Positions 7,556-31,620 of a stretch of DNA of 34,549 nt are shown piece by piece. This DNA is from Deltaproteobacteria bacterium RBG_16_49_23 (GTDB taxonomy: Bacteria > Desulfobacterota > BSN033 > UBA1163), in NCBI GenBank assembly GCA_001798855.1, contig MGQQ01000035.1, positions 1-34,549 on the forward strand. The letters are read 5' to 3'. The notes beneath the pieces are model-generated. The model was not told the origin of the DNA. It saw nothing but the letters and a program-made list of their open reading frames with translations, and did not search any database. The number at the start of each line of letters is the position of its first letter. Position 1 is the stretch's first letter. Both the position numbers and the translations under genes were made by a program.

Positions 7556-8623
7556 ATGTGTGACGGGACGACGAGAAGGGATTTTTTAAAAAATTCAATC
7601 ATCGGTGGTGTAGCATTGGGGGCTGGCGTAGGAATTTACGAGTTGGCCTACGCTCAGGCTACGAATATTCGATTTAGCACTTGGCACCCTCCTGTGGGTC
7701 GTGAGGCGAAGACCGTCTGGGAGCCAATGTTAGAGGAATTGAAAAAGAGAAGCGGAGGCAAGATCACCTCTACCCTGTATGCCGGTGGAGCCTTGGGCAA
7801 AGGACCGGAGCATTTCGATATTGTGGCGAAAGGTCTTTCGGACATGGGCTACTTCACGGCCACCTGGACGCCGGGTCGCTTTCCCCTTTCGGATGTCCTT
7901 TCTTTAGCGGCCTGGGTCGATGGGAAAGATCTTGCCACGGACATTGGAAATGCGATGTATGACCGGATCCTTAACAGGGAGTTTAAAGATGTGAAGATGA
8001 TCGAATTGAACGGTTGCATCCAGTCTTTTCTGTGGACGAAAAAACCGGTCCGCTCTTTAGCCGACACCAAGGGAATGAAGATCAGGACACCCGGCGGTCA
8101 TCAAACACATTATATCAAGGCCCTGGGCGCAGAACCTGTATTTATGCCCTTAGGCGATGTCTACCTGGCCATCGAGACAGGGACGATTGATGGACTGGTG
8201 ACCTGTCCCCCTCTGGTTTTGGGTTTTAAACTTCATGAGGTGGCCAAACATGGCGTGGTGGCGACCTTTGGGTGTGTCACAGAAGGCGTGGTCATGAATC
8301 TCGATAGTTGGAAAAAATTGCCGGATGACCAGAAGAAGATCATCGAATCGGTGAGCCACAATCCGTTCAAGACGACTGGAGGATTAAACCGGGAAGTTTA
8401 CAAGGTCATGATGAAGGAGATTACTGACAAGGGAGTGACCCTTTTCAATCTTCCTTCGGATGAGGCGGAGCGCTGGTATGAAAGTTTCAGAGAGGTGACA
8501 AGGAAGTGGGTGGCCGACCTGGAGGGAAAAGGACTTCCTGCCAAAGAGGTTGTCAAGATGTACAATCAGGAATGCGAGAAGAGAGGCGTTAAGGTTGTAG
8601 CCTTCCCGCGCGAATGGGCCTGA
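7556..8623 (+). CDS. dctP: TRAP transporter substrate-binding protein (DctP family), Tat-exported
   Basis: Periplasmic binding protein that delivers an organic acid to the DctQ/DctM membrane complex. The N-terminus TTRRDFLKNS is a twin-arginine motif, followed by a hydrophobic stretch and an AYA-Q cleavage site near residue 33. Family features are FSTWHPP at the mature start, LYAGGALGKGPE, and KIRTPGG, whose Arg in known DctP proteins binds the substrate carboxylate. 355 aa is normal. ATG 7556 has a strong AAGGAGGAG about eight bases upstream. It opens a + strand group with dctQ, dctM and N-heterocycle catabolic genes. That context suggests an aromatic carboxylate such as nicotinate as substrate, which is inference. 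Confidence 0.93.
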   Translation: MCDGTTRRDFLKNSIIGGVALGAGVGIYELAYAQATNIRFSTWHPPVGREAKTVWEPMLEELKKRSGGKITSTLYAGGALGKGPEHFDIVAKGLSDMGYFTATWTPGRFPLSDVLSLAAWVDGKDLATDIGNAMYDRILNREFKDVKMIELNGCIQSFLWTKKPVRSLADTKGMKIRTPGGHQTHYIKALGAEPVFMPLGDVYLAIETGTIDGLVTCPPLVLGFKLHEVAKHGVVATFGCVTEGVVMNLDSWKKLPDDQKKIIESVSHNPFKTTGGLNREVYKVMMKEITDKGVTLFNLPSDEAERWYESFREVTRKWVADLEGKGLPAKEVVKMYNQECEKRGVKVVAFPREWA

Positions 8624-9002
8624 AAAATTCTATCCAAAGATATTTGAAATTTCCCAATGATCCCCTCCCCCTTCGACGGGGGAGGGTTAGGGTGGGGGTG
8701 GACAAAATAGAGACCATTTGGTCCCCCCTCCCCTTCATCCCCTCCCGCCGAGAGGCTGTGTCGCAATGTGTGAATTGGGATGTTTGTCATTCTGAACGAA
8801 GTGAAGAATCTAATGATTTCAACTGAATCGATCATAGAGATTCTTCGGCTATCGCCTCAGAATGACATTACGACACAGTCTCGAGGGGAGGGGAGATTTT
8901 TTAGAAACATTTTCCCGCGCTTCGCGGGATTAGAGATAAATTCTCAGACTTTTTGGTGTTAGTATTTAACATTGAGCAGGAGATAAGGAGGTCAATGCCG
9001 GG
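8624..9002. repeat. Nested palindromic repeats between dctP and dctQ
   Basis: No gene lies here. A purine/pyrimidine-rich element (about 8660-8900; CCCCTCCCCCTTCGACGGGG, later TCCCCTCCC) resembles the element at 23348-23455. It is interrupted at 8749-8884 by a second palindrome. That palindrome's outer arms are GAGGCTGTGTCGCAATGT and ACATTACGACACAGTCTC, and its inner arms are GTCATTCTGAACGAAGTGAA (8786 on) and AGATTCTTCGGC...CTCAGAATGAC (8838-8866). Just before dctQ is AAGGAGG (8985-8991). The insertion separates dctP from dctQ by about 380 bases, unusual within a TRAP operon. Confidence 0.75.
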
Positions 9003-9497
9003 ATGGGGTGGTTGGGAAAAGGCAAGAAGGGGATACAATCGGTTAATCGTTTGATCGCAGGAGTGAGCGGGATTTTTCTTATACCTTTGATGCTCATCAC
9101 AGCGGCCGATGTTCTTTCAAGGGACTTGTTCAACCGCCCCATCCCCGGCACGATCGAATTGTCTCAATATATGTTAGCAGTTGTTATTCTCCTGGGGCTT
9201 GCCTATACTCAGCAGGTAAAAGCCCATGTAGCCGTTTCTCTCCTTACTTCTAAGCTATCCCATCCTGTCCAGGTGGTTTTCGGTATGATCAGCACCCTCA
9301 TCGGCTTATCTATCTTTTCCATCCTGGCCTGGCAGGGATGGGTCGTAGGAATAGAAGAACGGACTGTTTCAGACATGCTGAGAGTTCCTCAATATCCCTT
9401 TCGGCTCCTGGTTGCCATTGCTGCTTTTTCAACCTGTCTCGAACTTCTTATTGATTTCGGAGAATCTATAAAAAAACTTGCCGGGAGGCCATCCTGA
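9003..9497 (+). CDS. dctQ: TRAP transporter small permease subunit (DctQ family)
   Basis: Small integral-membrane subunit of the Na+-driven TRAP transporter. Four hydrophobic segments can be seen (about residues 15-35, 50-68, 88-112 and 133-152). The family motifs ADVLSRDLFNRPIPGTIELSQY and AYTQQVKAHVAVSLL are present (quoted in part: RPIPGTIELSQY). The ribosome site AAGGAGG lies about 11 bases before ATG 9003. The stop overlaps the start of dctM by one base (TGATG), which indicates translational coupling. 164 aa is typical. Confidence 0.92.
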   Translation: MGWLGKGKKGIQSVNRLIAGVSGIFLIPLMLITAADVLSRDLFNRPIPGTIELSQYMLAVVILLGLAYTQQVKAHVAVSLLTSKLSHPVQVVFGMISTLIGLSIFSILAWQGWVVGIEERTVSDMLRVPQYPFRLLVAIAAFSTCLELLIDFGESIKKLAGRPS

Positions 9498-10804
9498 TGG
9501 ACCCTGTCGTGGTTGGGATTCTTGGCACCTGCTTACTCTTTCTTTTATTGCTGATCGGAGTACCCATCGCTTTTTCTTTGATGACCGTTGGGTTTTTAGG
9601 AATCACCTATCTCGCCTCAATCAAAGCCGCACTCCCCTTGATTGCAAGGGCTGTCTATGAGTCGTCTTCCCACTACCCCTATACCATTATTCCTCTTTTC
9701 ATCGTCATGGGCAGCTATGCAGAGATTTCAGGCATCAGCAGTGACCTTTACGATACTTTTGATAAATGGCTTCGGAGACTTCCCGGGGGGCTTGGGATGG
9801 CAACGATTGCCTCCATTGCCGGATTTTCTGCTATCTCAGGTTCATCGGTTGCATCTTCAGCCGCTTTTGGAAAGGTGGCTTATCCCGAGATGAGAAGATT
9901 CAATTATTCTCCCAGGTTGGCGGCTGGAACAATAGCAGCTGGAGCCACCATTGATTTTCTTATTCCTCCGAGCCTTGGCTTTGTGATCTTCGGCATGCTT
10001 TCGGAACAGTCCATCGGAAAGCTTCTCATTTCCGGTATGATCCCTGGCCTCATTCTCGCAGGCGCTTTTATAGGGATCTTATATGTCTGGGTGAAATTTA
10101 GTCCCAATTCAGCTCTGAGCAGTCCCGAAGGAGTGTCCTGGAAAGAAAAAATAACTGCCCTGAAAGGGATCTGGGAAACCGTCGTCATCTTCCTACTGGT
10201 CATCGGCGGCATTTATACCGGCCTGTTTACTCCCAATGAGGCGGCCGGGGTTGGAGCAACCTTAATTTTTGCGATGGCGATCTGGAAGAAGAAGTTGACC
10301 CGACAAATACTCCTTTCGACTCTTTTTGAAGCTGTCCGTGTGTCCGTCATGGTTCTTTTCCTGGTGGCGAGCGCCAATGTCTTCAGTTATTTTTTGGCCC
10401 TTTCCATGATCCCGATGAAAGTTTCTACATGGATTGGTGCGCTGCCTGTTTCAAAATATATCATCTTAGCAATCATCGTCTTCATTTATCTGATCCTTGG
10501 TTGTTTCCTCGATGCCATCTCCATGATGATCTTGACCCTTCCGGTGATATTCCCCGTCATTCTGAAACTCGGTTTTGACCCAATATGGTTTGGGGTCGTC
10601 TGTGTCCTGATGATGGGGGCAGGCTTGATCACACCTCCTATGGGCCTCTGCGTGTTTACGGTCGCCAGCATCGCCAAAGATGCGCCTCTCGAAGAAGTGT
10701 TTAAGGGGGCTTTGCCTTTTTTGATCGCTATTTTGTTTGTCACTTTTCTCATAACGGTATACCCGGAGATCGCCCTTTTTCTCCCGAATATGATGGGGAG
10801 GTAA
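9497..10804 (+). CDS. dctM: TRAP transporter large permease subunit (DctM family)
   Basis: Main transport subunit, with 12 or so membrane segments through its 435 residues. Recognisable motifs are FIVMGSYAEISG, GFSAISGSSVASSAAFGKVAYPEM (quoted in part: SGSSVASSAAFGKV), the ATIDFLIPPSLGFVIFG loop, FTPNEAAGVGA, and the C-terminal GLITPPMGLCVFTVASIA. ATG 9497 overlaps the dctQ stop and has GGGAGG about nine bases upstream. No truncation. With dctP and dctQ the transporter is complete. Confidence 0.94.
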   Translation: MDPVVVGILGTCLLFLLLLIGVPIAFSLMTVGFLGITYLASIKAALPLIARAVYESSSHYPYTIIPLFIVMGSYAEISGISSDLYDTFDKWLRRLPGGLGMATIASIAGFSAISGSSVASSAAFGKVAYPEMRRFNYSPRLAAGTIAAGATIDFLIPPSLGFVIFGMLSEQSIGKLLISGMIPGLILAGAFIGILYVWVKFSPNSALSSPEGVSWKEKITALKGIWETVVIFLLVIGGIYTGLFTPNEAAGVGATLIFAMAIWKKKLTRQILLSTLFEAVRVSVMVLFLVASANVFSYFLALSMIPMKVSTWIGALPVSKYIILAIIVFIYLILGCFLDAISMMILTLPVIFPVILKLGFDPIWFGVVCVLMMGAGLITPPMGLCVFTVASIAKDAPLEEVFKGALPFLIAILFVTFLITVYPEIALFLPNMMGR

Positions 10805-10963: not shown

Positions 10964-12478
10964 ATGGAACCGAGGAGACTCAAAAATTTCATCAATGGAC
11001 AGTGGGTGGAGTCAAAGGCCCATCGGTGGCTGGAAGTGAGAAATCCGGCTACGGATGAGGTGATTGCCCTCTGTCCGGAGACCACCCCCGACGAAATTGA
11101 CCGGACGGTGAGGATCGCCCAGGAAGCCTTCTGGTCATGGAGGACGACGCCTCCGCCCCGGCGCGCAAAATTTCTCTTCGATTTTCATGAAAAACTCCAG
11201 AAACATCAGGACGAGATAGCCAGATTGATTGTGGATGAAAACGGAAAGACCCTGGCAGATGCCCGGGGAGAGATCATCCGGGCCATGGAATATGTGGAGC
11301 ATGCCTGTGCGGGACCGGAACTTCTGAAGGGGAGCCATGCAGAAGATGTGGGGACTGGAGTCGATACGATGTATATTCGGGAGCCGCTCGGGGCTTTCGT
11401 ATTTCTTCCTCCTTTCAATTTTCCTGCCATGATCGCCCTCTACTTTGTATGGGCCCTCGCCGCAGGCGATACGGCCATCGTGAAATCAAGCCGCCTCTGC
11501 CCGATGACGATTACCAGAATCATTGAGATTGCCGAGGAGTGCGGTTTTCCCAGAGGAGTCCTCAACCTTCTCCATGGTTCCGGGAGCGGGGTGGGCGAAG
11601 CTCTGGTCACCCATCCCGGGACAGCAGGGGTTTCATTTGTCGGCTCTTCGAAGGTGGGAGAGCGCGTCTATAAGACGGCCATTCATCATAACAAGAGGGC
11701 TCAATGTCAGGGAGGAGCGAAAAACCATGTCCTGATTGCCGAGGATGCCATCATCGATGAGGTGATGCAGAATGTGGTCGATTCCTGTTTCGGCCATGTG
11801 GGTGAGCGTTGTTTTGCCGTATCGAATGTATTGGCCGTTGAGAAGATTTATGAGAAGGTCAAAGAGAAGTTCCTCGATCTCTCCAAAAAACTGGTCCTGG
11901 GTTATGGCATGGATAAAGGGGTAACCCTGGGGCCGGTCGTCTCCAAAGAGGCTTTAAACGAGATCTTAAAAGAAGCGGACCAGGGGATCAAAGATGGAGC
12001 AAAGCTCCTTCTCGACGGCAGGAACGCAAAAGTGGATAAGTATCCAAAGGGATATTTTCTTGGTCCGACCGTTTTAGAAGCGGAGCCGGAGATGCGCCTC
12101 TTTCAACTGGAGGTTTTCGGGCCGGTTCGCTGTCTCAAGAAGGTGAAAGATCTTGCAGAGGGTGTTCAGATCATCAATCAGAGTCCTTATGGCCATACGG
12201 CAAACATTTACACTGAGAATGGCGGATGGGCTCGAGAATTCGCAAGGTTGGTCGATGTGGGTCAGGTGGGGATCAATATCGGGACTCCTGCTCCTATTGC
12301 CTATTTTCCTGTCGGTGGGAGAAAGATTTCGATGTATGGCGATATCCGGGGCCGCGCCAATGAGGCGATTGATTTCTATACGGACAAGAAAGTGATCATC
12401 AGCCGGTGGCATTCCTCGTTCCAGGGAACGGCCAAGACACTGGATGATGGATTTGCGATGAAATATTCCAAAAAATAA
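10964..12478 (+). CDS. CoA-acylating methylmalonate-semialdehyde-dehydrogenase-like enzyme
   Basis: Cytoplasmic ALDH of the MMSDH (IolA/MmsA) group, which converts malonate semialdehydes with NAD+ and CoA to acyl-CoA plus CO2. Group features are LKNFINGQWVES at the start, GGAKNH in place of the hydrolytic ELGGKS segment (so the general-base Glu is absent, as expected for CoA-dependent members), FGHVGERCFA with catalytic Cys283, and INIGTPAPIAYFPVGGRK with DFYTDKKV near the end. Arg106 (EIIRAMEYVE) and Arg282 match the two arginines implicated in carboxylate binding in B. subtilis IolA (from memory). ATG 10964 follows GAAAGGA; the upstream in-frame start lies in repeat DNA. In this cluster a plausible substrate is 2-formylglutarate, giving glutaryl-CoA; that is inference. 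Confidence 0.9.
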   Translation: MEPRRLKNFINGQWVESKAHRWLEVRNPATDEVIALCPETTPDEIDRTVRIAQEAFWSWRTTPPPRRAKFLFDFHEKLQKHQDEIARLIVDENGKTLADARGEIIRAMEYVEHACAGPELLKGSHAEDVGTGVDTMYIREPLGAFVFLPPFNFPAMIALYFVWALAAGDTAIVKSSRLCPMTITRIIEIAEECGFPRGVLNLLHGSGSGVGEALVTHPGTAGVSFVGSSKVGERVYKTAIHHNKRAQCQGGAKNHVLIAEDAIIDEVMQNVVDSCFGHVGERCFAVSNVLAVEKIYEKVKEKFLDLSKKLVLGYGMDKGVTLGPVVSKEALNEILKEADQGIKDGAKLLLDGRNAKVDKYPKGYFLGPTVLEAEPEMRLFQLEVFGPVRCLKKVKDLAEGVQIINQSPYGHTANIYTENGGWAREFARLVDVGQVGINIGTPAPIAYFPVGGRKISMYGDIRGRANEAIDFYTDKKVIISRWHSSFQGTAKTLDDGFAMKYSKK

Positions 12479-12604: not shown

Positions 12605-13075
12605 ATGGAGATAACCATTAAGTTCACCATAAACGGAAAGATGGTCAAGGTGGAGGTCCCTCCTCACTGGACCCTTCTGCGGCTTCTTCGCGAGAGGTTA
12701 GGCCTGACGGGAACGAAGGAAGGGTGCGGCATTGGGGAATGCGGAGCCTGCACCGTCCTGTTAGATGGAATGCCGGTCAATGCTTGCCTTGTCTTAGCGC
12801 CTAAAGTAGATGGAAGGAGTGTCTTCACTGTTGAGGGGCTCGGGAGTCGGGATGCACTCCATCCTTTACAAAAATCTTATATTGAGCATGGTGCAGTCCA
12901 ATGCGGCTTTTGCACCCCGGGAATGTTGATTTCCTCCAAGGCTCTTTTGGATAAGAATCCTCATCCGACTCAAGATGAAATCAAGGAAGCGATTTCAGGC
13001 AACCTCTGCCGTTGCACAGGATACCAGCAGATTATCGAAGCAATCGAAGCCATCGATAAAGATGTTAGAGGATAG
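12605..13075 (+). CDS. Molybdenum hydroxylase iron-sulphur subunit (NdhS-like, 2x[2Fe-2S])
   Basis: Electron-transfer subunit of a xanthine-dehydrogenase-family enzyme. The N-terminal plant-type ferredoxin domain carries C41, C46, C49 and C61 (EGCGIGECGACTVLLDG). The C-terminal helical domain carries C100, C103, C135 and C137 (VQCGFCTPGM, NLCRCTGY). Gln99, just before C100, is the usual contact to the molybdopterin dinucleotide. Length of 156 aa is standard. No clear ribosome site precedes ATG 12605. The last codons (DVRG, then TAG) run into an iterated AGAGGTTAGAGG repeat. With the next two genes it makes a complete S/M/L enzyme; context points to nicotinate or a related N-heterocycle as substrate. 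Confidence 0.94.
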   Translation: MEITIKFTINGKMVKVEVPPHWTLLRLLRERLGLTGTKEGCGIGECGACTVLLDGMPVNACLVLAPKVDGRSVFTVEGLGSRDALHPLQKSYIEHGAVQCGFCTPGMLISSKALLDKNPHPTQDEIKEAISGNLCRCTGYQQIIEAIEAIDKDVRG

Positions 13076-13172
13076 AGGTTAGAGGAGCGTCCTCCTCGGA
13101 GGACTTGAGGCTAAAGATCATAGGTGTTTTGCCTCAAATGAAATGGTCCTCAAACCTCCAGCCTCAAACAGA
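13066..13172. repeat. Iterated AGAGG/CCTC inverted repeat overlapping a gene end
   Basis: AGAGGATAGAGGTTAGAGGA and GGACTTGAGGC are followed by TTTTGCCTCAAATG, GGTCCTCAAACCTCC and GCCTCAAAC, which are complementary in blocks. The stop codon of the Fe-S subunit (13073-13075) is in the left part. Confidence 0.5.
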
Positions 13173-13179
13173 AAGCATA

Positions 13180-14058
13180 ATGATTCCTTCTTTCGACTAT
13201 AAGACTCCCAAAACCCTTCAGGAAGCCTGCGATCTCCTCCAGGAAGCTCATGGAAAGGCAAAGATCATCGCTGGGGGGACCGATCTGGTGATCGGCCTTC
13301 GGAATGGAGATTCCAACCCAAGCCTGCTGATCGACATCACCTCCCTGAAGGAGCTCCGGAGAATTGAAGAGACAGATGAAACCCTGTCCGTCGGGGCTGC
13401 TGTTACCCATTCGGAGATTGCTTCTTCTCCTCTGGTGAGGCAATACGGAATCGTCTTATCAAAGGCCGCCTCTGAGATCGGCTCTCCACAGATCAGAAAT
13501 CTCGGAACAATCGGAGGAAATATCGTCAATGGTTCTCCGGCGGCTGACACCCTTCCGCCCTTAATTGTACTGGATGCCATCGGGAAGGTTATCTCTCGAG
13601 ATAGAGAGCGAAACGTTCCTGTGGCCCAACTCGTGAAAGGACCCTATGAAACCAGTCTGAAACCTTCCGAAATCCTGGTTGGAGTATCTTTTAAGAAACT
13701 TTCTCAAGATATAAGGAGCGGTTTTATCAGATTGGCAAGGAGAGAGGCCATGGCCATTGCCAGAATGAGTATCGCTCTCCTTCTCCAGGTTCAGGAAGGG
13801 AAGATCCAGAACATACGGATCGCTCCGGGAGCAATTTTGCCGACCCCTCAGGGATTGTCAGATGTGGAAGAATTTTTAAAAGGTAAATCTCCTGATGAGG
13901 AGGTGTTGAGAATAGCATCACGGAAAGTCTCAGAAGCGATGATCCGGCGGAGCGGAATAAGGCCCTCTGCCCCGTATAAAGCGCCCGTAGTGGAAGCCCT
14001 GTTCCTGAGAGCAATGCGAAGGGCGCTGGAAGGTCAGGATGAAACAGGTAGGAGTTGA
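13180..14058 (+). CDS. Molybdenum hydroxylase FAD subunit (NdhF/CoxM-like)
   Basis: Flavin subunit that passes electrons from the Fe-S subunit to the acceptor. The FAD-binding motifs of the family are IIAGGTDLVIGLRNG (about residues 30-44) and GTIGGNIVNGSPAADT (about 108-123). The protein has only one Cys, so the extra [4Fe-4S] loop that marks 4-hydroxybenzoyl-CoA reductase HcrB is absent; this argues against that enzyme. ATG 13180 is chosen because homology starts at MIPSFDYKTP and 292 aa is the family length; the upstream in-frame codons lie in repeat DNA. The 3' end overlaps the start of the Mo subunit by 20 bases. Confidence 0.93.
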   Translation: MIPSFDYKTPKTLQEACDLLQEAHGKAKIIAGGTDLVIGLRNGDSNPSLLIDITSLKELRRIEETDETLSVGAAVTHSEIASSPLVRQYGIVLSKAASEIGSPQIRNLGTIGGNIVNGSPAADTLPPLIVLDAIGKVISRDRERNVPVAQLVKGPYETSLKPSEILVGVSFKKLSQDIRSGFIRLARREAMAIARMSIALLLQVQEGKIQNIRIAPGAILPTPQGLSDVEEFLKGKSPDEEVLRIASRKVSEAMIRRSGIRPSAPYKAPVVEALFLRAMRRALEGQDETGRS

Positions 14059-16291
14059 AATCCCAAAAGTGGATGGACTGGAGAAGGTTCTGGGGCAGGC
14101 AACATTTGGGGCAGACCTTTCTGCCGACAGTCCCCTCCAGTTGAGAGTTGTCCGGAGCACAAGGCCGCATGCTAAAATTGTAAGCATTGAAACAAGAGAG
14201 GCCGGCAAAGTGGATGGCGTTGAGAGGGTTTTTACAGCAAAGGATATTCCCGGAAGAAATTCAATCGGGACGATCACAAAAGACCAGCCCGTCCTTGCGC
14301 CGGATCGGGTGAGGTCTATCGGTGATCCTGTGGCGCTGGTTGCGGCAAGAACGATCGGAGCGGCGGAAGAAGCCGCCAAGAAGATCGCTGTCCTCTACGA
14401 AGATCTTCCCTCCGTAAGCCATCCTGAAGAGGCGCTCAAACCCCATGCTCCCCTGATTCATCAAAACGGAAACCTGCTCATAGAATTTCACATCATCAAG
14501 GGCGATGTCCATGCGGGTTTTAAAGAGGCTGATGTTACTGTCGAGGAGACCTATGAAACAACCTGGGTTGACCATGCCTATATGGAGCCGGATGCGGGCA
14601 TTTCCTATCTTGATGAAAAGGGAAGGGTGACCGTGGTCTGCCCAACACAGAATGTCCATTACGATCAAAAAGAGGTTGCCGCATTTCTTGCCCTTCCCCT
14701 GGAGGGGGTGAGGATCATCCAGTCTGCAACCGGAGGAGGATTCGGTGGAAGGCTCGATATCACGGTTCAATGCTTTTTGGCCCTTGCTGCCTTTCATCTG
14801 AAAAGACCGGTGAGGATCGTTTACTCACGGGAGGAGGTTTTCCAGGTCACATCCAAACGGCATCCCTTGAAAATACGGTACAGGAGCGGTGCGAAGAAGG
14901 ATGGAAAATTGACTGCCATAGAGGTTGAAATCTTAGGTGATACAGGAGCGTATGCCTCTTATGGCGCCACAGTAGGGATTCGGTCTGCGGTTCATGCCAC
15001 AGGTCCCTATGAGATACCCAATGTTAAGGTGAGGAGCCGGATGGCCTATACGAATAATCCATGGTCAGGCGCCATGCGGGGATTCGGAGTTCCTCAGATG
15101 GCCTTTGCTCACGAGTCGCAAATGGAGCTCCTGGCCCAGGCCCTGGGGATGGATCCTATTGAAATCCGGCTTAAGAATGCGCTGACCGCGGGTTCGGAGA
15201 CAGCGACCGGACAGACACTGGTAGCAAGCATCGGAATCGGGCAGACTCTAAGAAAGGTGAAAGAGTGGGAGGATCGTCATCCCATCGTAAAAATCGATCC
15301 TGAGCGACCCTACATGAAGAAAGGAATCGGAATAGGGTCAATGTGGTATGGGATAGGCAATACGGGGGTGGCAAACCCTTCTACCGCCCAGATGGAGATC
15401 GATCCGAATGGAGAGGTTCGTCTTTTCTCGGGCGCGGCTGATATCGGTCAGGGTTCCGATACCGTTTTTCTCCAAATCGCCTCTGAATCCCTGGGGATTC
15501 CATTAAGGGAGATCCGGCTTATTCGCGCGGATACCGCTCTGACGACGGACGCAGGGGCCACTTCCGCGAGCCGTCAGACCTATATCTCCGGGAATGCGAT
15601 CCTGAATGCCATAAAAAATATAAAACAGGAGGCGATCAAAGAGGCGAGTCAACTTCTGGGCGTGGATGAAAAGGGTCTATTTTATGAAGAGGGTAAGGTT
15701 AAATCCAGAACCTGCCTGACCACCTCTCTTCCAGTGTGGGAGGTGGCTAAGCGAAGCGGGAAAATCCTCAGGGGTGAAGGAATCTTCGATCCTGAGACGA
15801 CAAAGCTCGACCCAAAGACAGGGCAGGGAGCGCCTTATGCCACCTATGCCTTCGCAACTCATTTAGCCGAGGTGGAGGTGGACACAGAGACGGGTAAGGT
15901 GAAAGTGATCCGGGTGGTGGCAAGTCACGATGTCGGAAGAGCAATCCATCCGAAGAATGTGATGGGTCAGATCACTGGCGGGGTTGCAATGGGGATGGGG
16001 TTCGCTTTGATGGAAGAGTATGTTCCGGGAGGGATGGCCTCTTTTGTTAACTACCTCATTCCGACATCAAAAGATATTCCGGAGGTGATTCCAATTCTTG
16101 TTGAAGAGCATGAGCCCAGTGGCCCGTTTGGAGCGAAAGGCGTGGGAGAACCGGCCCTCATTCCATGCGCGCCGGCCATTTTGAATGCCATCGCAGATGC
16201 CATTGGAGAGAGAATATATCAACTTCCTGCCAACCTGGAAAGAGTGTTGGAAGCAGTTCGAAAGAAGAAGGCAGTAATCAGTGATCAGTAA
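14039..16291 (+). CDS. Molybdenum hydroxylase catalytic subunit (single-chain)
   Basis: Molybdopterin-binding catalytic subunit of the xanthine dehydrogenase family, cytoplasmic. Visible motifs are the a/b hammerhead start (GLEKVLGQATFGADL), GGGFGGRLD at about 237-245, AMRGFGVPQ at about 347-355, GQGSDTVFLQIASE near 475-488, and KGVGEPALIPCAPAILNAI near the end, where Glu of GVGEP is the catalytic base in the family. 750 aa is the usual single-chain length, whereas E. barkeri nicotinate dehydrogenase splits this subunit into NdhL and NdhM. Substrate is inferred from the neighbouring reductase and enamidase: nicotinate C6 hydroxylation or a close analogue. The last residues (VISDQ) come from a CAGTAATCAGTGATCAG repeat. 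Confidence 0.93.
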   Translation: MKQVGVEIPKVDGLEKVLGQATFGADLSADSPLQLRVVRSTRPHAKIVSIETREAGKVDGVERVFTAKDIPGRNSIGTITKDQPVLAPDRVRSIGDPVALVAARTIGAAEEAAKKIAVLYEDLPSVSHPEEALKPHAPLIHQNGNLLIEFHIIKGDVHAGFKEADVTVEETYETTWVDHAYMEPDAGISYLDEKGRVTVVCPTQNVHYDQKEVAAFLALPLEGVRIIQSATGGGFGGRLDITVQCFLALAAFHLKRPVRIVYSREEVFQVTSKRHPLKIRYRSGAKKDGKLTAIEVEILGDTGAYASYGATVGIRSAVHATGPYEIPNVKVRSRMAYTNNPWSGAMRGFGVPQMAFAHESQMELLAQALGMDPIEIRLKNALTAGSETATGQTLVASIGIGQTLRKVKEWEDRHPIVKIDPERPYMKKGIGIGSMWYGIGNTGVANPSTAQMEIDPNGEVRLFSGAADIGQGSDTVFLQIASESLGIPLREIRLIRADTALTTDAGATSASRQTYISGNAILNAIKNIKQEAIKEASQLLGVDEKGLFYEEGKVKSRTCLTTSLPVWEVAKRSGKILRGEGIFDPETTKLDPKTGQGAPYATYAFATHLAEVEVDTETGKVKVIRVVASHDVGRAIHPKNVMGQITGGVAMGMGFALMEEYVPGGMASFVNYLIPTSKDIPEVIPILVEEHEPSGPFGAKGVGEPALIPCAPAILNAIADAIGERIYQLPANLERVLEAVRKKKAVISDQ

Positions 16292-16456: not shown

Positions 16457-17623
16457 ATGACGAAATTGTTGATCAAAAATATCGGGACGATGGTTTCAGG
16501 GGATATTTCCAATCCTCTCTTGAATGCGGATGCCCTGATGATTGAGGGAGGGTTGATTCAAGCAATCGGCAAGGAGAAGGAACTTGATGATAGAGGGATC
16601 GAGCAGGTGATGGATGTGGGAGGAATGACGGTGACTCCGGGGTTGATCGATTCCCACTGCCATCCCGTCCTCGGAGATTTCACACCACGACAGAAGATGC
16701 TTGACTTCATCGAATCCTCTCTCCACGGGGGCGTAACGACTGCCATTTCTGCGGGAGAGGTCCACCTTCCCGGGAGGCCGAAGGATGTGGCCGGAACAAA
16801 GGCTCTGGCTATCCTTGCCGCTAAATCCTTTGCCGGCGCAAGACCCGCAGGTGTGAAGGTGCTTGGCGGAAGCGTCATCCTTGAGCCGGGCCTTCAGGAG
16901 AAGGATTTTGAGGAACTGGCAAGAGAGGGTGTTCGTGTGGTGGCAGAGATTGGTTTAGGAGGGGTAAAAAGTCCGAAGGAAGCGGCCCCTATGGTCAAGT
17001 GGGCGAAGAAGTATGAAATGGTGGTGATGATGCATACGGGAGGAACTTCCATTCCCGGAAGCGCTACCGTTTCCGCTGATGATGTGATCGCAACCGATCC
17101 GGATATCGTCTCCCATATCAATGGAGGTCCCACTGCGGTTTCCCTCGCCGAGGCAGAAAAATTGGTTCGAAAGACCTCTCTGACCTTGGAGATCGTCCAC
17201 TGCGGGAACTCAAAAATGATTGTGGATGTGATGAAGATCATAAAAGAGGTGAAGGCATATCCACGGATCATCATTGGCAATGATGCCCCTTCCGGAACCG
17301 GTGTGATCCCTCTGGGGATTCTGAGGGTTATCAACTTCCTTGCCTCCCTCTGTGGTGTGAAAGCAGAAGAGGCCATTGCCATGGCAACAGGCAATACAGC
17401 AAAGGTTTATAGATTGAACAGGGGGGTGATTGAGGTTGGAAAAGAGGCAGATCTGATCATCATGGATACTCCCATGGGTTCGGTAGGCAAAGATGCCCTC
17501 TCTGCGATTGAGGCAGGCGATATCCCCGGGATTGCGGCTGTTTTGATCGATGGCCAAATGAAGATCGGGGTGAGCCGGAATACACCGCCCCCCAACCGAA
17601 AAATCATAAGTGGTAACGCGTGA
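16457..17623 (+). CDS. Enamidase (amidohydrolase superfamily, Ena-like)
   Basis: Binuclear-metal amidohydrolase. E. barkeri enamidase opens 1,4,5,6-tetrahydro-6-oxonicotinate to 2-formylglutarate and ammonia. The resemblance to that enzyme, recalled from memory, runs the whole length: TPRQKMLDFI, LHGGVTT, FPGRPKDVAGTKAL-like LPGRPKDVAGTKALAI, MHTGGTSIPGS, DIVSHINGGPTA, NDAPSGTG and SRNTPP. Candidate metal and catalytic residues fall at His67, His69, Glu164, His193, His220 and Asp276, the positions I recall as the Fe-Zn ligands and base of the characterised enzyme. ATG 16457 has GGAGG six bases upstream. This is the strongest functional marker of the cluster; other cyclic enamides remain possible substrates. 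Its stop codon lies in a repeat. Confidence 0.92.
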   Translation: MTKLLIKNIGTMVSGDISNPLLNADALMIEGGLIQAIGKEKELDDRGIEQVMDVGGMTVTPGLIDSHCHPVLGDFTPRQKMLDFIESSLHGGVTTAISAGEVHLPGRPKDVAGTKALAILAAKSFAGARPAGVKVLGGSVILEPGLQEKDFEELAREGVRVVAEIGLGGVKSPKEAAPMVKWAKKYEMVVMMHTGGTSIPGSATVSADDVIATDPDIVSHINGGPTAVSLAEAEKLVRKTSLTLEIVHCGNSKMIVDVMKIIKEVKAYPRIIIGNDAPSGTGVIPLGILRVINFLASLCGVKAEEAIAMATGNTAKVYRLNRGVIEVGKEADLIIMDTPMGSVGKDALSAIEAGDIPGIAAVLIDGQMKIGVSRNTPPPNRKIISGNA

Positions 17624-17699: not shown

Positions 17700-19229
17700 A
17701 TGATTGTTGATTGGGAAACCTGTATCGGATGCGGATTGTGCGTGGAAACCTGTCCTCTTTCAGCCATCACCCTGATGGAGGAAAAAGGAAAGAAGAAAAA
17801 GGCATCCATCTCTGACATCTGTGTGGATTGCAAAGCTTGCACTAAGGTCTGTCCAGCAGACGCTATTACACCTGAGCCAGAGCCAAAAGCAGAGACCATT
17901 CAATGCCCGTCCTGCCCAATCTCTTGCACCATTATGGCTGGCAATACAGGAGCATGCCAACGATTCGTCAATTTGGATGGGGCGCTCGTCCGGAACATTT
18001 CGCTTCAATCTTATGAAGATGTCAAGGAGATCGTCGGTGAAGATCATGAAGAAGTCATCCGAAGGCCATTGATCACAGGCATCGGAGCCGGGACCACTTA
18101 CCCCGACACCAAACCCGCCCCATATATTGTCCAATCCCGGTTGAAAGGAATCGATGTCGTCACTGTCGTCACAGAGGCGCCGTTGAGTTACAGCGGCATT
18201 AAGGTGAAAGTCGATACGGATCTCCATATGGGCAGCGAAGGCGCGCCTGTCCGGGTCGGGAAAAAGAGGGTGGGGCATCTCTGCACAGAGGAATATGGCT
18301 CGAAGATTCTTTCTTTGGGAGGCGTCAACCTTTTAACCGACAAGAATGGTATGTCTATGGCGAAACTCATCGTTGACATTGCGAACCGGAAAGAGGTCCA
18401 TCTTAATGTGGAGGATGGCGCTGAACTGGTTCTCCAGGTGGGGAAGGCCCCTGTCATTGATGGTAAGACAGGGAAGAAGATGAGGGCGGGGTGTGGCAGC
18501 GCTTCCATGGGTCTCTTTGGCAGGCAATTTTTAGATGCGGCGGATGAAGTGATCGTCCTCGACGCTCACCTGATCGGACAATTCACAGAACACGCCGCAG
18601 GCAAGGAATTGGGCGCCAAATATAGCGGGATAAGGGTGAAGGCAAGGCGTTCTACACCGGGAAGATATTTTGGAGAACATGGCCGGGGCTGGGGAGGCAC
18701 ATCCGTTGAAAACCCCCTCGAGATCATCGAAGGGATTGAACCAAGAATCGCTAAACCCGGAATGACCGTCCTGATCACCGAGACGACAGCCGAAAGGGCA
18801 GCCATGTTTCGTCTCGGAAAGGATGGAAAGTTTACCCGGATTGAATTGACCCCGAAAGCGAAAATGGCAGTGGATGCGATTGCCTCAAACTGTCAGCCGT
18901 CAAGGGTTTCCGCTGTTTTTATTGGCGGTTCAGGCGGCAGCGCCAGGGCAGGGGTTACGAAGATTCCGGTTAAGCTTAACCAGGCCATTCATCAAAACCG
19001 GGCAAAGTTGACCGTGGGTGGAGCGCCGACTTATATCCTGCCTGGAGGCGGGATCACATTTATGGTCGACGTTGAGAAGGTGATGGTTAGAGCCTTCACC
19101 TATGTGCCGACTCCTGCAATGGTCGTTCCTCTCGAATATACCATGAGATTGAAAGAGTATCTGGAGATAGGGGGGCACAAAAAGAGGATCCGGAAACTGA
19201 AAGAGGTTTTGAAGGAGATAAAGAAATAA
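17700..19229 (+). CDS. 6-hydroxynicotinate reductase-like iron-sulphur protein (Hnr-like)
   Basis: Probable ferredoxin-dependent reductase of the hydroxylated ring. Three Cys clusters open the protein: C8/C11/C14/C18 and C41/C44/C47/C51 are classical [4Fe-4S] motifs (CIGCGLCVETCP, CVDCKACTKVCP), and C69/C72/C76/C86 form a third set that could hold a [2Fe-2S]. The purified E. barkeri enzyme is reported to have two [4Fe-4S], one [2Fe-2S] and a covalent flavin, which fits. The remaining ~420 residues are a Gly-rich catalytic domain with no family I recognise independently. No exact [DS]-G-[AS]-T flavinylation motif was found. GAGAGG precedes ATG 17700. Its position next to the enamidase supports the assignment. 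Confidence 0.8.
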   Translation: MIVDWETCIGCGLCVETCPLSAITLMEEKGKKKKASISDICVDCKACTKVCPADAITPEPEPKAETIQCPSCPISCTIMAGNTGACQRFVNLDGALVRNISLQSYEDVKEIVGEDHEEVIRRPLITGIGAGTTYPDTKPAPYIVQSRLKGIDVVTVVTEAPLSYSGIKVKVDTDLHMGSEGAPVRVGKKRVGHLCTEEYGSKILSLGGVNLLTDKNGMSMAKLIVDIANRKEVHLNVEDGAELVLQVGKAPVIDGKTGKKMRAGCGSASMGLFGRQFLDAADEVIVLDAHLIGQFTEHAAGKELGAKYSGIRVKARRSTPGRYFGEHGRGWGGTSVENPLEIIEGIEPRIAKPGMTVLITETTAERAAMFRLGKDGKFTRIELTPKAKMAVDAIASNCQPSRVSAVFIGGSGGSARAGVTKIPVKLNQAIHQNRAKLTVGGAPTYILPGGGITFMVDVEKVMVRAFTYVPTPAMVVPLEYTMRLKEYLEIGGHKKRIRKLKEVLKEIKK

Positions 19230-19361: not shown

Positions 19362-20276
19362 GTGTATTCCAACAGTTGTTACGATTTAGCTGATATGAGA
19401 ATGCAATTGGCCGGGAAAATATACTCACATGATCCTATCCAGGTTTTACCCAATGGAACCGTTCTCGTGGACTATGGCCCAATGCGGATGTTCATCAGTG
19501 TCTCTGAACATGGAGAGCCTCTCACCAAATTTGCGGAAGAGGGGGCTCATCTGGCCATGAGTCTTCTCGAAGATTTAGCGAAATGTCTCCCTGTTATAAA
19601 GAGAAAAAGTGTGACCCTGGAGATGAAGGATATTTATCCTGAGATTGTCCGAAGAATGATTGAGGCGACCCAAAGAATCGGAGAGCCGGATTTAACTCCT
19701 CTCGCGGCTGTCGCCGGAACAGCCTCTGAGATGGTTGCTGATTTTATCTTCAGGAGGGGTGGGACGAAGGTCATCGTGGACAATGGAGGGGACATTGCCA
19801 TCCGGTTAAGGGAAGGGGAAGTGGCAAGAGTGGGAGTAAAAACAGAAATCACTGCAAAACAACCTACCTATCTTATTTCAATCGATTCCGCCATGGGAAT
19901 AAGGGGCGTGGCGACAAGTGGCCTTGGCGGGAGAAGTTTTACCAAGGGCATTGCTTCAGCGGCAACGGTGCTCGCAGAGAAGGCTTCACTGGCTGACGCT
20001 GCGGCAACCGTCATTGGGAATTTGACCAATGTGGATGATCCCAATATCACCAGAACCCCTGCTGAAAGAATATATCCCGATACGGATATCGCCGGTGAAT
20101 GGATTACCGTCAAAGCAGAAAAATTGTCCCAGGAAAAGATTGGGGAAGCATTGGGCAATGGTCTATTAAAAACATATTCGATCCAACAGAAAGGTTTGAT
20201 CCAAGGAGCCTTAATTGCTTTACAAGGGAAAGCAGTCTGGACAAATTCTTTGAGTCCTTGGTTAAGAAAATTGTAA
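19362..20276 (+). CDS. UPF0280 family protein (ApbE superfamily)
   Basis: Uncharacterised family placed in the ApbE superfamily, whose known members attach FMN covalently to proteins. ApbE-like elements are VDNGGDIAIRL (about residues 144-154), GVATSGLGGRSFTKG (about 182-196) and LADAAATVIGN (about 213-223). The usual ApbE His motif (HIxDP) is replaced by the UPF0280 form GGRSFTKGIA. The gene is immediately downstream of the 6-hydroxynicotinate reductase-like gene. The characterised reductase carries covalent flavin, so a maturation role is an attractive inference. The start is uncertain: GTG 19362 has a purine-rich site 11 bases upstream, while ATG 19395 is also possible. 304 aa is within or slightly above the family range. 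Confidence 0.85.
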   Translation: MYSNSCYDLADMRMQLAGKIYSHDPIQVLPNGTVLVDYGPMRMFISVSEHGEPLTKFAEEGAHLAMSLLEDLAKCLPVIKRKSVTLEMKDIYPEIVRRMIEATQRIGEPDLTPLAAVAGTASEMVADFIFRRGGTKVIVDNGGDIAIRLREGEVARVGVKTEITAKQPTYLISIDSAMGIRGVATSGLGGRSFTKGIASAATVLAEKASLADAAATVIGNLTNVDDPNITRTPAERIYPDTDIAGEWITVKAEKLSQEKIGEALGNGLLKTYSIQQKGLIQGALIALQGKAVWTNSLSPWLRKL

Positions 20277-20562: not shown

Positions 20563-21141
20563 ATGGAAGTCCGAAAATACGTCACCCTTGTGGAAGAGAC
20601 GGTTGTGGAAGGAGGAAAAAAGGTTGATCCTCCGACCCGGAAGGCTGCTGCTGTGGCCGTGATTAAGAATCCCTTTGCAGGGAAGTATGTTGAGAAATTG
20701 GATGAACTGATCGATATCGGTGAAGAGTTAGGGGGAATCCTGGGGAGGAAGGCTGTCGAAGCATTGAAGATACCGGCTAAAAATGCTGAGAGTTACGGAA
20801 AGGCAGCCGTCGTGGGAGTGGATGGCGAGTTAGAACATGCCGCGGCCATTCTTCATCCCAAACTCGGGACACCTTTGAGAGAAGCAGTCGGCGGAGGGAA
20901 AGCCATTATTCCATCGGCCAAGAAGATGGGAGGCCCGGGGACAGAGATCGATGTGCCGCTCCATTACAAAGATGCCGCCTTTGTCCGCACTCATTTCGAT
21001 GCCATGACCGTGAGAGTCCCCGACGCCCCCCGATCCGATGAGATCCTCGTTGCCATCGTGGTCACGGATTCAGGCAGACCTCACGCAAGAATTGGCGGCT
21101 TAAAAAAAGAAGAAGCCAAAAAAGAAGACGGATTACGATAA
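20563..21141 (+). CDS. PF06684 'amino acid synthesis' family protein (former DUF1185)
   Basis: 192-aa soluble protein with the family features VEETVVEGGKKVDPPTRKAA near the start (quoted in part), NPFAGKYVEKLDELIDIGEELG around residues 36-57 (in part: NPFAGKYVEKLDEL), YGKAAVVGVDGELEHAAAILHPKLG (in part: GVDGELEHAAAILHPKLG), and the C-terminal VVTDSGRPHARIGGL. GGAGG lies just before ATG 20563. The biochemical function of the family is not established; solved structures show a chorismate-mutase-like fold (recalled). It is the last + strand gene of the catabolic cluster and lies between inverted copies of the TGTAGCG repeat. A role in the N-heterocycle pathway is inferred only from position. Confidence 0.88.
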   Translation: MEVRKYVTLVEETVVEGGKKVDPPTRKAAAVAVIKNPFAGKYVEKLDELIDIGEELGGILGRKAVEALKIPAKNAESYGKAAVVGVDGELEHAAAILHPKLGTPLREAVGGGKAIIPSAKKMGGPGTEIDVPLHYKDAAFVRTHFDAMTVRVPDAPRSDEILVAIVVTDSGRPHARIGGLKKEEAKKEDGLR

Positions 21142-25366: not shown

Positions 25367-26176
25367 TTATTCACTTTCATGCCTGTGGAAGAGATAGTGG
25401 GAATGGATGTGCCTGTGGGCCATATTGCCATGGCGGTGGATATGCTCATGGATCAGATTGACCCTGAGCAGGAGTTCTTCATCTCCCAGGATATCTGCAG
25501 CGTTTCCTGTTTTTTCCAACCGGTGTTCTTCCGATAAAACCCCTACGGTTGCCTGCAGTTCATCCACGAGAGAGAGGTCATGGGTGGCAATGACAAGGGT
25601 CTTTCCAGCCTCATTCAAGGCGAGCATGAGTTCTACAAGAAAGCATTGTGTTTTCGGATCGAACCCATTGGTGGGTTCATCCAGGAGCAGGACTTCTGGG
25701 TTCATGGTCAGGACAGAGCCGATGGCCACCTTCTTCTTTTCTCCTCCAGAGAGCATATAAGAGGGTCTGTCTTTCAGGTTTTCGATACCCAGCATCTTCA
25801 TGATCTCGAAAGCCCTGTCCAGAGCCTCTTCCTTGCTAATTTCTAACTGAAGGGGTCCGTAAAGGAGTTCATCAAGCACCGTGGGACAGAAAAGCTGGAC
25901 ATCCGGGTCCTGAAAGACATATCCAACCCGTTCCCGAAAAAATCTCAGGAAGCCTTTATTCCGCAAAGACTTTTCGGAAACATCGATTCCCTCGAAGAAA
26001 AATTTCCCGCTAACCGGGTATCTCAACCCTCCAATGATCTGCAATAGCGTCGATTTCCCGCTCCCATTAGCCCCGATAATGGCAACTTTTTCTCCCTTAT
26101 TCATTTTGAGACTTACATCGGAAAGGGCAGGAATCTTATCGAAATAAGTATAACTGACTTTTTCAAGCCTTATCAT
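25367..26176 (-). CDS. cbiO: Nickel/cobalt ECF transporter ATPase (CbiO) with His-rich tail
   Basis: Energy-coupling ATPase of an ECF metal uptake system. Walker A is GANGSGKST, the Q-loop YVFQDPDVQLFCP, the signature MLSGGEKKKVAIG, Walker B VLLLDEPTNGFDP, and the H-loop ATHDL. The C-terminus is strikingly His-rich (HEHIHRHGNMAHRHIHSHYL), a feature of metal-handling CbiO proteins and consistent with nickel. ATG 26176 is chosen because homology begins there and GAGG lies ten bases upstream; a GTG at 26185 is possible. It is the last gene of the cbiM-N-Q-O group, 12 bases after cbiQ. Confidence 0.94.
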   Translation of the reverse strand: MIRLEKVSYTYFDKIPALSDVSLKMNKGEKVAIIGANGSGKSTLLQIIGGLRYPVSGKFFFEGIDVSEKSLRNKGFLRFFRERVGYVFQDPDVQLFCPTVLDELLYGPLQLEISKEEALDRAFEIMKMLGIENLKDRPSYMLSGGEKKKVAIGSVLTMNPEVLLLDEPTNGFDPKTQCFLVELMLALNEAGKTLVIATHDLSLVDELQATVGVLSEEHRLEKTGNAADILGDEELLLRVNLIHEHIHRHGNMAHRHIHSHYLFHRHESE

Positions 26177-26188
26177 ACAGACCACACC

Positions 26189-27115
26189 TCAGATGAATAG
26201 AAAGAACACCCCGGTGAATAAGAGAAAGGTGCCTGCATAACAGTCACCTGTTCGCATCTTTGGGAAGCCATAAAGTTTAATGGTATCCGAAAAACCTCTT
26301 CCGATCATCGCCTTAAAAACCTCTTCATACCTCAGACGGGTTTTCATAAAGATGAATGCAACCCGCCCTGCAATCCACTCCCTCGCTTCGGCATGAGTCG
26401 CCTCCCGGACCATCCTGCTTTTTTTTGAAAGGTGCATATCCTCTGCGGTCTTCGAGAATATGAAAATATACTTAAAACAGAGAGTTATAATAATAATAAA
26501 GGTGTCCGGAACTTTCAGAACCTTAAGAGCTCTCAAGATCTCGGAGAAAGGTGTCGTATAGAGCACCAAGAAGGAGAGGGAGAGCGAGTTGATCACCCGC
26601 AGGGTTAGCCGGATCACGCCATAAATGCCTTCCCTGGTTATTCCAACCTCTGCGGGGATATGGTAGATCCAAAAATTTATGGGCTTTGAAAATCTTATGA
26701 CAGGACCAACCATTTCCCCATTTGTAATCACATTGAAAGCAGAGGGAAAAGCAATGAGGAAACCCAAAAAAAATCCTAAAAAAAGAACCCTGCTGTAAAA
26801 TGTGACAATTCGTATACGGGAAAGCAAGGCAAGAGAAAAAATAAAACCCCCGATATAGAGCTCTGACAATAAGTCTCTTTTTAGATTAACAATGATGACA
26901 AAAAAGAGGAGGAAAAGAACTTTTACCCTGGCATCGATCTTTTGGAAAAGTCCACTCCCGGATGAAAGCTCCCACTGAACATATCCCTTTTTGATCAACT
27001 GCGCCAGATGATGGATTCCCTCTTCAAGAAAACCCATTTTGATTCTTCCCTTACCCTGTTTGAAAGAGACGGGGGAGGGCTGGTCTAACAGAAAGGAAGG
27101 TAATTTATTTTCCAT
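26189..27115 (-). CDS. cbiQ: Nickel/cobalt ECF transporter membrane coupling protein (CbiQ)
   Basis: Transmembrane T-component that links the ATPase to CbiM. It contains KIDARVKVLFLLFFVIIVNL at the first core membrane segment (in part: DARVKVLFLLFFVIIVN) and the C-terminal coupling helices with AEAREWIAGRVAFIFMKTRL and RYEEVFKAMIGRGF. About six membrane segments. An extra ~50-residue hydrophilic N-terminus precedes the core, making it longer (308 aa) than the usual ~260. The start overlaps the end of the upstream gene by 11 bases, so translation is probably coupled. Confidence 0.93.
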   Translation of the reverse strand: MENKLPSFLLDQPSPVSFKQGKGRIKMGFLEEGIHHLAQLIKKGYVQWELSSGSGLFQKIDARVKVLFLLFFVIIVNLKRDLLSELYIGGFIFSLALLSRIRIVTFYSRVLFLGFFLGFLIAFPSAFNVITNGEMVGPVIRFSKPINFWIYHIPAEVGITREGIYGVIRLTLRVINSLSLSFLVLYTTPFSEILRALKVLKVPDTFIIIITLCFKYIFIFSKTAEDMHLSKKSRMVREATHAEAREWIAGRVAFIFMKTRLRYEEVFKAMIGRGFSDTIKLYGFPKMRTGDCYAGTFLLFTGVFFLFI

Positions 27116-27446
27116 GCTTAGCTTTTGCGATCAACCTCGAAATCAATGAGAAAACGATAACACACGCCGCTATTCCGATGAGTCCTGAGACGATATAAGA
27201 GAATAACTCGGATGTCATCGATGAACTCTCCCCGACAAAGTTATAGTCAGGTATCGGAGCTTTCCATAAATCAGCCAGTTTTTTTAGACCATCAGGAACA
27301 TACCCGACAAGCCTCTCAACTTGATCTACTCCCCACTCCCCCCACGCCTCCCCTGCTTTAAATAATTTGGGAAAAAGGATCCCAAGAGGAGTAAGCAGCG
27401 CCATGATGAGAAGGCCTATCCATAGTCTTTTCTGAAATGCTGTCAT
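27105..27446 (-). CDS. PDGLE-domain protein (CbiN-like accessory membrane subunit)
   Basis: 113-aa protein with an N-terminal membrane segment (about residues 8-26), a short outside loop, and a C-terminal membrane segment (about 83-105). The PDGLE domain motif appears as YVPDGLKKLADLW, followed by AP-x-PDYN. In nickel/cobalt ECF systems this type of small subunit replaces CbiN next to CbiM. It lies between cbiM and cbiQ, the expected position. Confidence 0.87.
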   Translation of the reverse strand: MTAFQKRLWIGLLIMALLTPLGILFPKLFKAGEAWGEWGVDQVERLVGYVPDGLKKLADLWKAPIPDYNFVGESSSMTSELFSYIVSGLIGIAACVIVFSLISRLIAKAKHGK

Positions 27447-27464
27447 CTAAGGCTTCCTTTAAAG

Positions 27465-28157
27465 TTATTTGTTCCCTGAAGGGTCCGCTATGGCATAGAC
27501 GAGGTCGCGCTCGTGTTTCAGAAAGTATTTGAGCAATAACAGGGTGACCAACCCTTCGGCAATGCCGAAAAGAACCAAATGTTGGATGAGCATGATAGGT
27601 ACCGCTACGGAGAGGGGATAGGGAGCGTAGAGTGGTCTGCCGTCCACCCCTGTAGCGATTAAAGGCTGAATCCCGAACTCAACCGCAGTAAAAAGGGCTG
27701 CTGCTGTCAGACCAATGTAGCCGGAAAAGAAGGCTGCGACCGTCATCCTTTTCCCACTCTCTGCTCTTCCTTTTATAAGTTTAAATGATCCATAAGATAT
27801 AAAAGGCATGACCACGGCCATGTTAAAACAATTCGCTCCAATTGCAGTGATCCCTCCATCACCGAAAAGGATGGCCTGGATGATCAAAACTACTGACACA
27901 GCTATCACTGCCGTCCAAGGCCCCAAAAGGATGGCAATAATCCCAGCCCCTACGGCATGGCCGGTGGTGCCCCCCGGGACAGGAATATTAAACATCATAA
28001 TAAGAAAAGAGAATGCTGCGGCCATTCCAAGATAGGGGACATGCTTTAAAGACAGCTGTTTCTTAAGCTTTTTCTGGGCAATGCTCCAAAAGATAATGGA
28101 AACCCCGTATAATGGAACGTAAGTCTGGGGTCCCAAATACCCGTCTGGGATGTGCAT
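27465..28157 (-). CDS. cbiM: Nickel/cobalt ECF transporter substrate-binding protein (CbiM)
   Basis: Membrane S-component that binds Ni2+ or Co2+. It starts with MHIPDGYL, whose N-terminal amine and His2 are metal ligands in solved CbiM/NikM structures. NIPVPGGTTGHAVGAG follows, with a further conserved His, and ILFGDGGITAIGANCFNM is also typical. About six or seven membrane segments in 230 aa. Whether the metal is nickel or cobalt cannot be decided from CbiM alone, but the CooT gene upstream and the His-rich CbiO favour nickel. Confidence 0.94.
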   Translation of the reverse strand: MHIPDGYLGPQTYVPLYGVSIIFWSIAQKKLKKQLSLKHVPYLGMAAAFSFLIMMFNIPVPGGTTGHAVGAGIIAILLGPWTAVIAVSVVLIIQAILFGDGGITAIGANCFNMAVVMPFISYGSFKLIKGRAESGKRMTVAAFFSGYIGLTAAALFTAVEFGIQPLIATGVDGRPLYAPYPLSVAVPIMLIQHLVLFGIAEGLVTLLLLKYFLKHERDLVYAIADPSGNK

Positions 28158-31485: not shown

Positions 31486-31565
31486 GATCTTTCCTCCTGC
31501 ATTGAAATAGTGAAGCCTCCCGCCCACGGGACGGGGCTTCCCGGAGATGAAATGTCATTTCTATT

Positions 31566-31606
31566 GCGCTCCTTTTCCCCGCCTACAAGTCGGGGTAAAG
31601 GAGCGC
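31566..31606. repeat. Strong hairpin between hydroxyacyl-CoA dehydrogenase and thiolase genes
   Basis: GCGCTCCTTTTCCCCG and CGGGGTAAAGGAGCGC pair over 16 bases with one mismatch around a nine-base loop. A second, smaller one (GAAGCC...GGCTTC, about 31511-31539) lies next to it. No T-run on the minus strand, so it may be an RNA-processing or stability element or a repeat. Confidence 0.6.
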
Positions 31607-31620
31607 TTGCCGGCCCCATT

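Follow-up and report, generated by a model that had tools for sequence, protein, structure and literature searches.

Many anaerobic nicotinate degraders appear to use a single aldehyde dehydrogenase in place of the B12-dependent pathway end, probably forming glutaryl-CoA

Among the closest described systems is the nicotinate fermentation of Eubacterium barkeri (ndh, hnr, ena, hgd, hmd, dmd, mgm, mii, dml). In this pathway, a molybdenum hydroxylase, 6-hydroxynicotinate reductase and enamidase turn nicotinate into 2-formylglutarate, the branch point from which the B12-dependent branch starts. Besides a transporter and two genes of unknown function, aerobic clusters of Azorhizobium and Bradyrhizobium encode the first three steps, and their route runs via glutarate (PMC3511419). 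According to Kitts 1992, in the form in which that work is cited by PMC3511419, decarboxylation precedes oxidation in Azorhizobium. In the literature searched, no link between methylmalonate semialdehyde dehydrogenases (MMSDHs) and nicotinate degradation was found. To our knowledge, the MMSDHs are the only family of aldehyde dehydrogenases (ALDHs) known to decarboxylate their substrate.

The window, a stretch of 34,549 nucleotides from Deltaproteobacteria bacterium RBG_16_49_23, contains a nicotinate cluster with an MMSDH-like ALDH gene at 10964-12478 on the forward strand, the strand of all other cluster genes. Upstream lies a TRAP transporter (7556-10804) with DctP (7556-8623), DctQ (9003-9497) and DctM (9497-10804), identified by the corresponding Pfam domains and probably used for nicotinate uptake. 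Liv-type ABC transporters take its place in many relatives. Downstream follows a molybdenum hydroxylase (12605-16291) with a 2Fe-2S (12605-13075), a FAD (13105-14058) and a molybdenum subunit (14039-16291). It is a probable nicotinate dehydrogenase, judged from its position in the cluster and from matches to the xanthine dehydrogenase family, all of which are under the equivalog cut-offs. The next gene (16457-17623) matches the E. barkeri enamidase structure 2vun with E 4.5e-144 across residues 1-381, which identifies it as the enamidase that converts 1,4,5,6-tetrahydro-6-oxonicotinate to 2-formylglutarate and NH4+. The 6-hydroxynicotinate reductase homologue (17700-19229), with an N-terminal 4Fe-4S domain (Fer4), shows 43-44% identity to annotated proteins and 43-50% if clustered homologues are counted too.

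Two proteins of unknown function, a PRK04334-like UPF0280 protein (19362-20276) and an AA_synth (DUF1185) protein (20563-21141; PF06684, E 1.8e-75), are conserved in the cluster. Since nicotinate clusters of the ALDH type, of the B12 type and of aerobes all retain them, both are expected to work upstream of the branch. A nicotinamidase (PRK11609 at cut-off) is encoded in 19 of 109 unique enamidase loci, for example at L059:5795-6523 on the reverse strand, where it has a hydrophobic leader and is possibly exported. Its presence within many enamidase clusters points to nicotinamide as entry substrate. In L062, L066 and the overlapping L153/L178, an old-yellow-enzyme-like protein of 644-652 aa is encoded between the transporter genes and the molybdenum hydroxylase. 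A cobalt-type ECF transporter (CbiMQO-like, 25367-28157) is situated close to the window's cluster, in which the B12 branch is absent.

The ALDH gene extends from ATG at 10964 to the stop at 12478 (504 aa), with a ribosome-binding-like AAAGGA just 5' of the ATG; the mechanical list of open reading frames opens the same frame at TTG 10916. Promoter and terminator scans gave matches at chance level only. The best NCBIfam match is the MMSDH model TIGR01722 with 472.5 bits, above the curated cut-off of 448.5. The top ten PDB matches are MMSDHs only, led by B. subtilis IolA (1t90, E 3.1e-116). A tree of 81 rows places the protein with the characterised MMSDHs and apart from other ALDHs. Many enamidase clusters hold an MMSDH-like ALDH of one of two kinds, designated clade A, with 57-94% identity to the ALDH of the window, and clade B, with 33-41% (about 38%). 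Each clade is monophyletic with full support; as sisters they are joined at a moderate 82/91, with a warning of long branches. One representative of clade B reached 386 bits with TIGR01722, which is under the cut-off of 448.5. By TIGR01722, the match to 1t90 and a clade A support of 100/100, the window's enzyme is assigned to clade A of the MMSDH family, of the CoA-acylating type.

All MMSDH hallmarks claimed for this ALDH in the first-pass annotation (GAKNH, GERC, a missing general-base Glu and two arginines) are present. In the motif Q249-GGAKNH (11708-11728) Gln replaces the general-base Glu, which is carried by the aligned outgroup ALDHs L003 and L004 (ELGGK). The first carboxylate-binding arginine, Arg106 (codon 11279-11281), aligns with R106 of IolA; it is R in 14/14 clade A and 48/48 clade B sequences, and R in 12 and K in five of the 17 canonical MMSDHs. 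The motif E281-R282-C283 of GERC (11804-11812) contains the catalytic Cys and the second carboxylate-binding arginine, and R282 and C283 are invariant across both clades and the canonical MMSDHs. R106 and R282 of IolA, with which the two arginines align, are the residues numbered R124 and R301 in the B. subtilis MMSDH literature, both of which reportedly bind the substrate carboxylate. Furthermore, clades A and B have E140, C275, N288, H411, R464 and a basic residue (R/K) at position 453 in common; R464 is found in 62/62 proteins of the two clades and in 0/17 canonical MMSDHs. At the basic positions from R453 to R464 (12320-12355), an additional side chain could hold the distal carboxylate of 2-formylglutarate. 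Such a role is speculation, since the structure prediction is poor (AF2 model from seven sequences, pLDDT 51).

Gene content was surveyed in the regions of 48 enamidase genomes, detected among 297 genomes of the phylum, and in 79 loci of GTDB genomes. The enamidase loci belong mostly to Desulfobacterota/Thermodesulfobacteriota (including Syntrophaceae and Desulfomonile), some to Bacillota and Dehalococcoidia, and one to Archaeoglobi. Clade A occurs in ten of the 297 genomes and clade B (E<=1e-150) in 31, with enamidase in all ten of the former and in 30 of the latter; one more partial clade B match was found in G012. Counted by genus, clade B is present in 25 of 198 genera. Taken together, clade A or B was detected in 41/48 enamidase genomes and in 1/249 others (Fisher 8e-42, a value that ignores shared ancestry). 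The co-occurrence of this ALDH with enamidase across genomes, proposed as a check beforehand, was observed. Seven of the 48 enamidase genomes carry neither clade. At the level of loci, ALDH and enamidase share a strand in 54 of 55 unique cases, at a distance of 1-9 genes. None of these 55 loci holds both clades. Clade B often takes the operon position of clade A, and in the Syntrophaceae relatives L054 and L058 clade B occupies the exact slot held by clade A in the window.

The alternative, B12-dependent module was found, partial or complete, in the enamidase clusters of Tepidanaerobacter, Sedimentibacter, Desulforhopalus, Smac51, Sporomusa and others. Its 2-hydroxymethylglutarate dehydrogenase (Hgd) has E. 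barkeri Hgd (3cky, E 1.7e-83) as best PDB match, and its isomerase matches E. barkeri 3-methylitaconate isomerase (3g7k, E 1e-147). It also holds a B12-binding-domain protein of 614 aa, a lyase resembling PrpB and an accessory protein of the GlmL type. This module occurs in 0/55 unique ALDH loci versus 7/54 unique loci without ALDH. The B12-dependent methyleneglutarate mutase (Mgm) was searched genome-wide; Hmd, Mii, Dml and Dmd were looked for in the window and the flanks of its relatives. A query that was positive in 7/7 expected controls detected Mgm neither in the 48 enamidase genomes of the phylum, including that of the window, nor in the genome of L189, a clade A control. In genomes with Mgm, all MMSDH relatives fall outside the two clades. 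No recurrent enzyme family or gene other than the ALDH separates ALDH-type from B12-type clusters, an argument for a single enzyme doing the work of the branch. A complete hgd/hmd/mgm/dmd set elsewhere in the genome had been named in advance as the genomic part of a refutation. Such a set was not found, as Mgm is absent and the sole Hgd-like protein is nearer to tartronate semialdehyde reductase (E 1.5e-118) than to Hgd (E 2.8e-57).

One locus is an exception. In Clostridiales PH28_bin88 (L189:11480-14909), whose genome is without Mgm, the clade A ALDH adjoins a Hmd homologue (51%), which may be left over from the replaced branch. In an Archaeoglobi MAG (L204:12935-16515), where enamidase, a homologue of 6-hydroxynicotinate reductase and UPF0280 occur without the ALDH, a 614-aa aldehyde:ferredoxin oxidoreductase-like protein may be a third way of handling the aldehyde.

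The window's genome encodes another MMSDH (509 bits) on contig C41, where its neighbours are genes for methylmalonyl-CoA mutase, an epimerase, a carboxylase and a MeaB-like protein. It fills the canonical role, for which the ALDH of the window is therefore not needed. Because of the co-occurrence with enamidase, the mutual exclusivity with Mgm and this separate ordinary MMSDH, replacement of the B12 branch by the ALDH is most likely, with the predicted reaction 2-formylglutarate + CoA + NAD+ to glutaryl-CoA + CO2 + NADH. Linkage, co-occurrence and mutual exclusivity thus strongly support the idea of the first-pass annotation that an MMSDH-like ALDH stands in for the B12 branch of E. barkeri. 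This core idea passed every genomic test made, and the replacement of the B12 module is a strong additional one.

From the observed family, residues, linkage and mutual exclusivity we infer substrate, decarboxylation, product and downstream fate as follows. Nicotinate (or nicotinamide) would be converted to 2-formylglutarate through hydroxylation, reduction and ring opening by the linked molybdenum hydroxylase, 6-hydroxynicotinate reductase and enamidase. With NAD+, Cys283 of the ALDH would oxidize the aldehyde, while R106 and R282 grip the geminal carboxylate. The thioacyl enzyme would then lose CO2 in the manner of MMSDH, and the glutaryl group would be transferred to CoA. Glutaryl-CoA would be degraded via crotonyl-CoA to two acetyl-CoA, instead of the B12 route to propionate and pyruvate. 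We regard the ALDH as branch enzyme of an anaerobic nicotinate pathway via glutaryl-CoA as the best explanation on the whole, and as probably correct. Points against it are that glutaryl-CoA dehydrogenase (GCDH) of the decarboxylating type, though present here, does not track the cluster, the generic hydroxyacyl-CoA dehydrogenase and thiolase at 30-32 kb, the Hmd homologue of L189 and the seven enamidase genomes without either clade.

The main rival explanation is that 2-formylglutarate loses CO2 first, spontaneously or by an unlinked decarboxylase, and that the ALDH oxidizes glutarate semialdehyde to glutaryl-CoA or glutarate. As a beta-aldehyde acid, 2-formylglutarate might decarboxylate unaided, so that glutarate semialdehyde would be the real substrate; the distal carboxylate is present in both compounds, and the reaction order would be a variant of the Azorhizobium-type route, which runs via glutarate (PMC3511419). 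However, clades A and B retain both arginines that bind a carboxylate in beta position to the aldehyde, they are without the general-base Glu needed for hydrolysis, no decarboxylase recurs among the clusters, and aerobic clusters with the same upstream genes are without such an ALDH. Hence, we consider this order of events unlikely. Passing the TIGR01722 cut-off and the same catalytic residues would also fit an enzyme of ordinary function, acting on methylmalonate or malonate semialdehyde, whose place in the cluster is accidental. The separate, fully supported clade, enamidase in 10/10 clade A genomes and the canonical paralogue among mutase genes make this very improbable. Least probable of all, though compatible with the sequence, is an oxidation of 2-formylglutarate without decarboxylation, to a CoA thioester of 2-carboxyglutarate or the free acid with later loss of CO2, since the MMSDH relatives, as reported in work on B. 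subtilis IolA, decarboxylate on the enzyme and a malonyl-type thioester readily loses CO2.

For the proposed decarboxylating reaction to glutaryl-CoA, the genes of further degradation were examined. A GCDH is encoded in the window's genome (C42:27706-28872; E 1.5e-120 to 2eba and about 1e-106 to 1siq/1sir). Arg and Glu residues known from human GCDH appear to be conserved in it. In the corresponding region (L103:12557-19373), an adjoining aldehyde:ferredoxin oxidoreductase-like protein of 620 aa and nearby TRAP-like transporter genes were observed. Of two other acyl-CoA dehydrogenases considered, the one on C41 is not a GCDH; the one on C84 is closest to the GCDH 3mpi, with a frame open for 291 aa only. 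The suggested co-occurrence of the ALDH with GCDH across genomes did not hold. A GCDH of the decarboxylating type was detected in 4/48 enamidase genomes versus 22/249 others and in three of the ten clade A genomes, and it was not found in the four genomes of the same genus that carry clade A. The association with the cluster is not general, given these counts and the absence from the same-genus genomes. Other acyl-CoA dehydrogenases may serve where this type is absent.

A hydroxyacyl-CoA dehydrogenase and a thiolase at 30283-32475 had been proposed for the last steps. Both genes are present and plausible, but they lie on the opposite strand, about 9 kb away and beyond the ECF transporter, with no specific link to the cluster. 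The divergent thiolase (30283-31527, reverse strand; TIGR01930 181 bits, under the cut-off) keeps Cys106, His369 and Cys399. It is generic and without specific tie to the cluster, and could cleave acetoacetyl-CoA. The second protein (31621-32475, reverse strand) is a generic 3-hydroxybutyryl-CoA dehydrogenase-like protein (NF004474, 368 bits, under the cut-off of 408).

In general, many anaerobic degraders of nicotinate (vitamin B3) appear to swap the B12-dependent end of the pathway for a single ALDH, judged from gene content. We lean towards a widespread anaerobic pathway in which a CoA-acylating, decarboxylating 2-formylglutarate dehydrogenase derived from MMSDH supplants a B12 branch of seven to eight genes, with clades A and B exchanged in one slot. 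If true, this would explain at the level of genes how sulfate reducers and syntrophs that degrade nicotinate end the pathway without B12 chemistry. It would also add a new substrate class to the MMSDH family and correct automatic annotations that assign such ALDH genes to valine or inositol catabolism.

Compared with E. barkeri, the molybdenum hydroxylase, 6-hydroxynicotinate reductase, enamidase and the branch point 2-formylglutarate are the same. In contrast, the window's cluster contains one MMSDH-like ALDH instead of the B12 mutase module, and acetyl-CoA and CO2 are the predicted products, where E. barkeri forms propionate and pyruvate. With Azorhizobium and Bradyrhizobium it shares the first three steps, the UPF0280 and DUF1185 genes and the C5 glutaryl skeleton after loss of CO2. 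There, decarboxylation and oxidation lead to free glutarate, followed by CoA transfer, and no MMSDH-like ALDH was seen in the related aerobic clusters examined. With the MMSDHs IolA, MmsA and ALDH6A1 the enzyme has in common the fold family, the Cys, the two arginines, the missing Glu and the proposed oxidative decarboxylation to an acyl-CoA. It differs from them in the clade-specific E140, C275, N288, H411, basic residue 453 and R464, and in its context, which is nicotinate and not valine, inositol or propionate.
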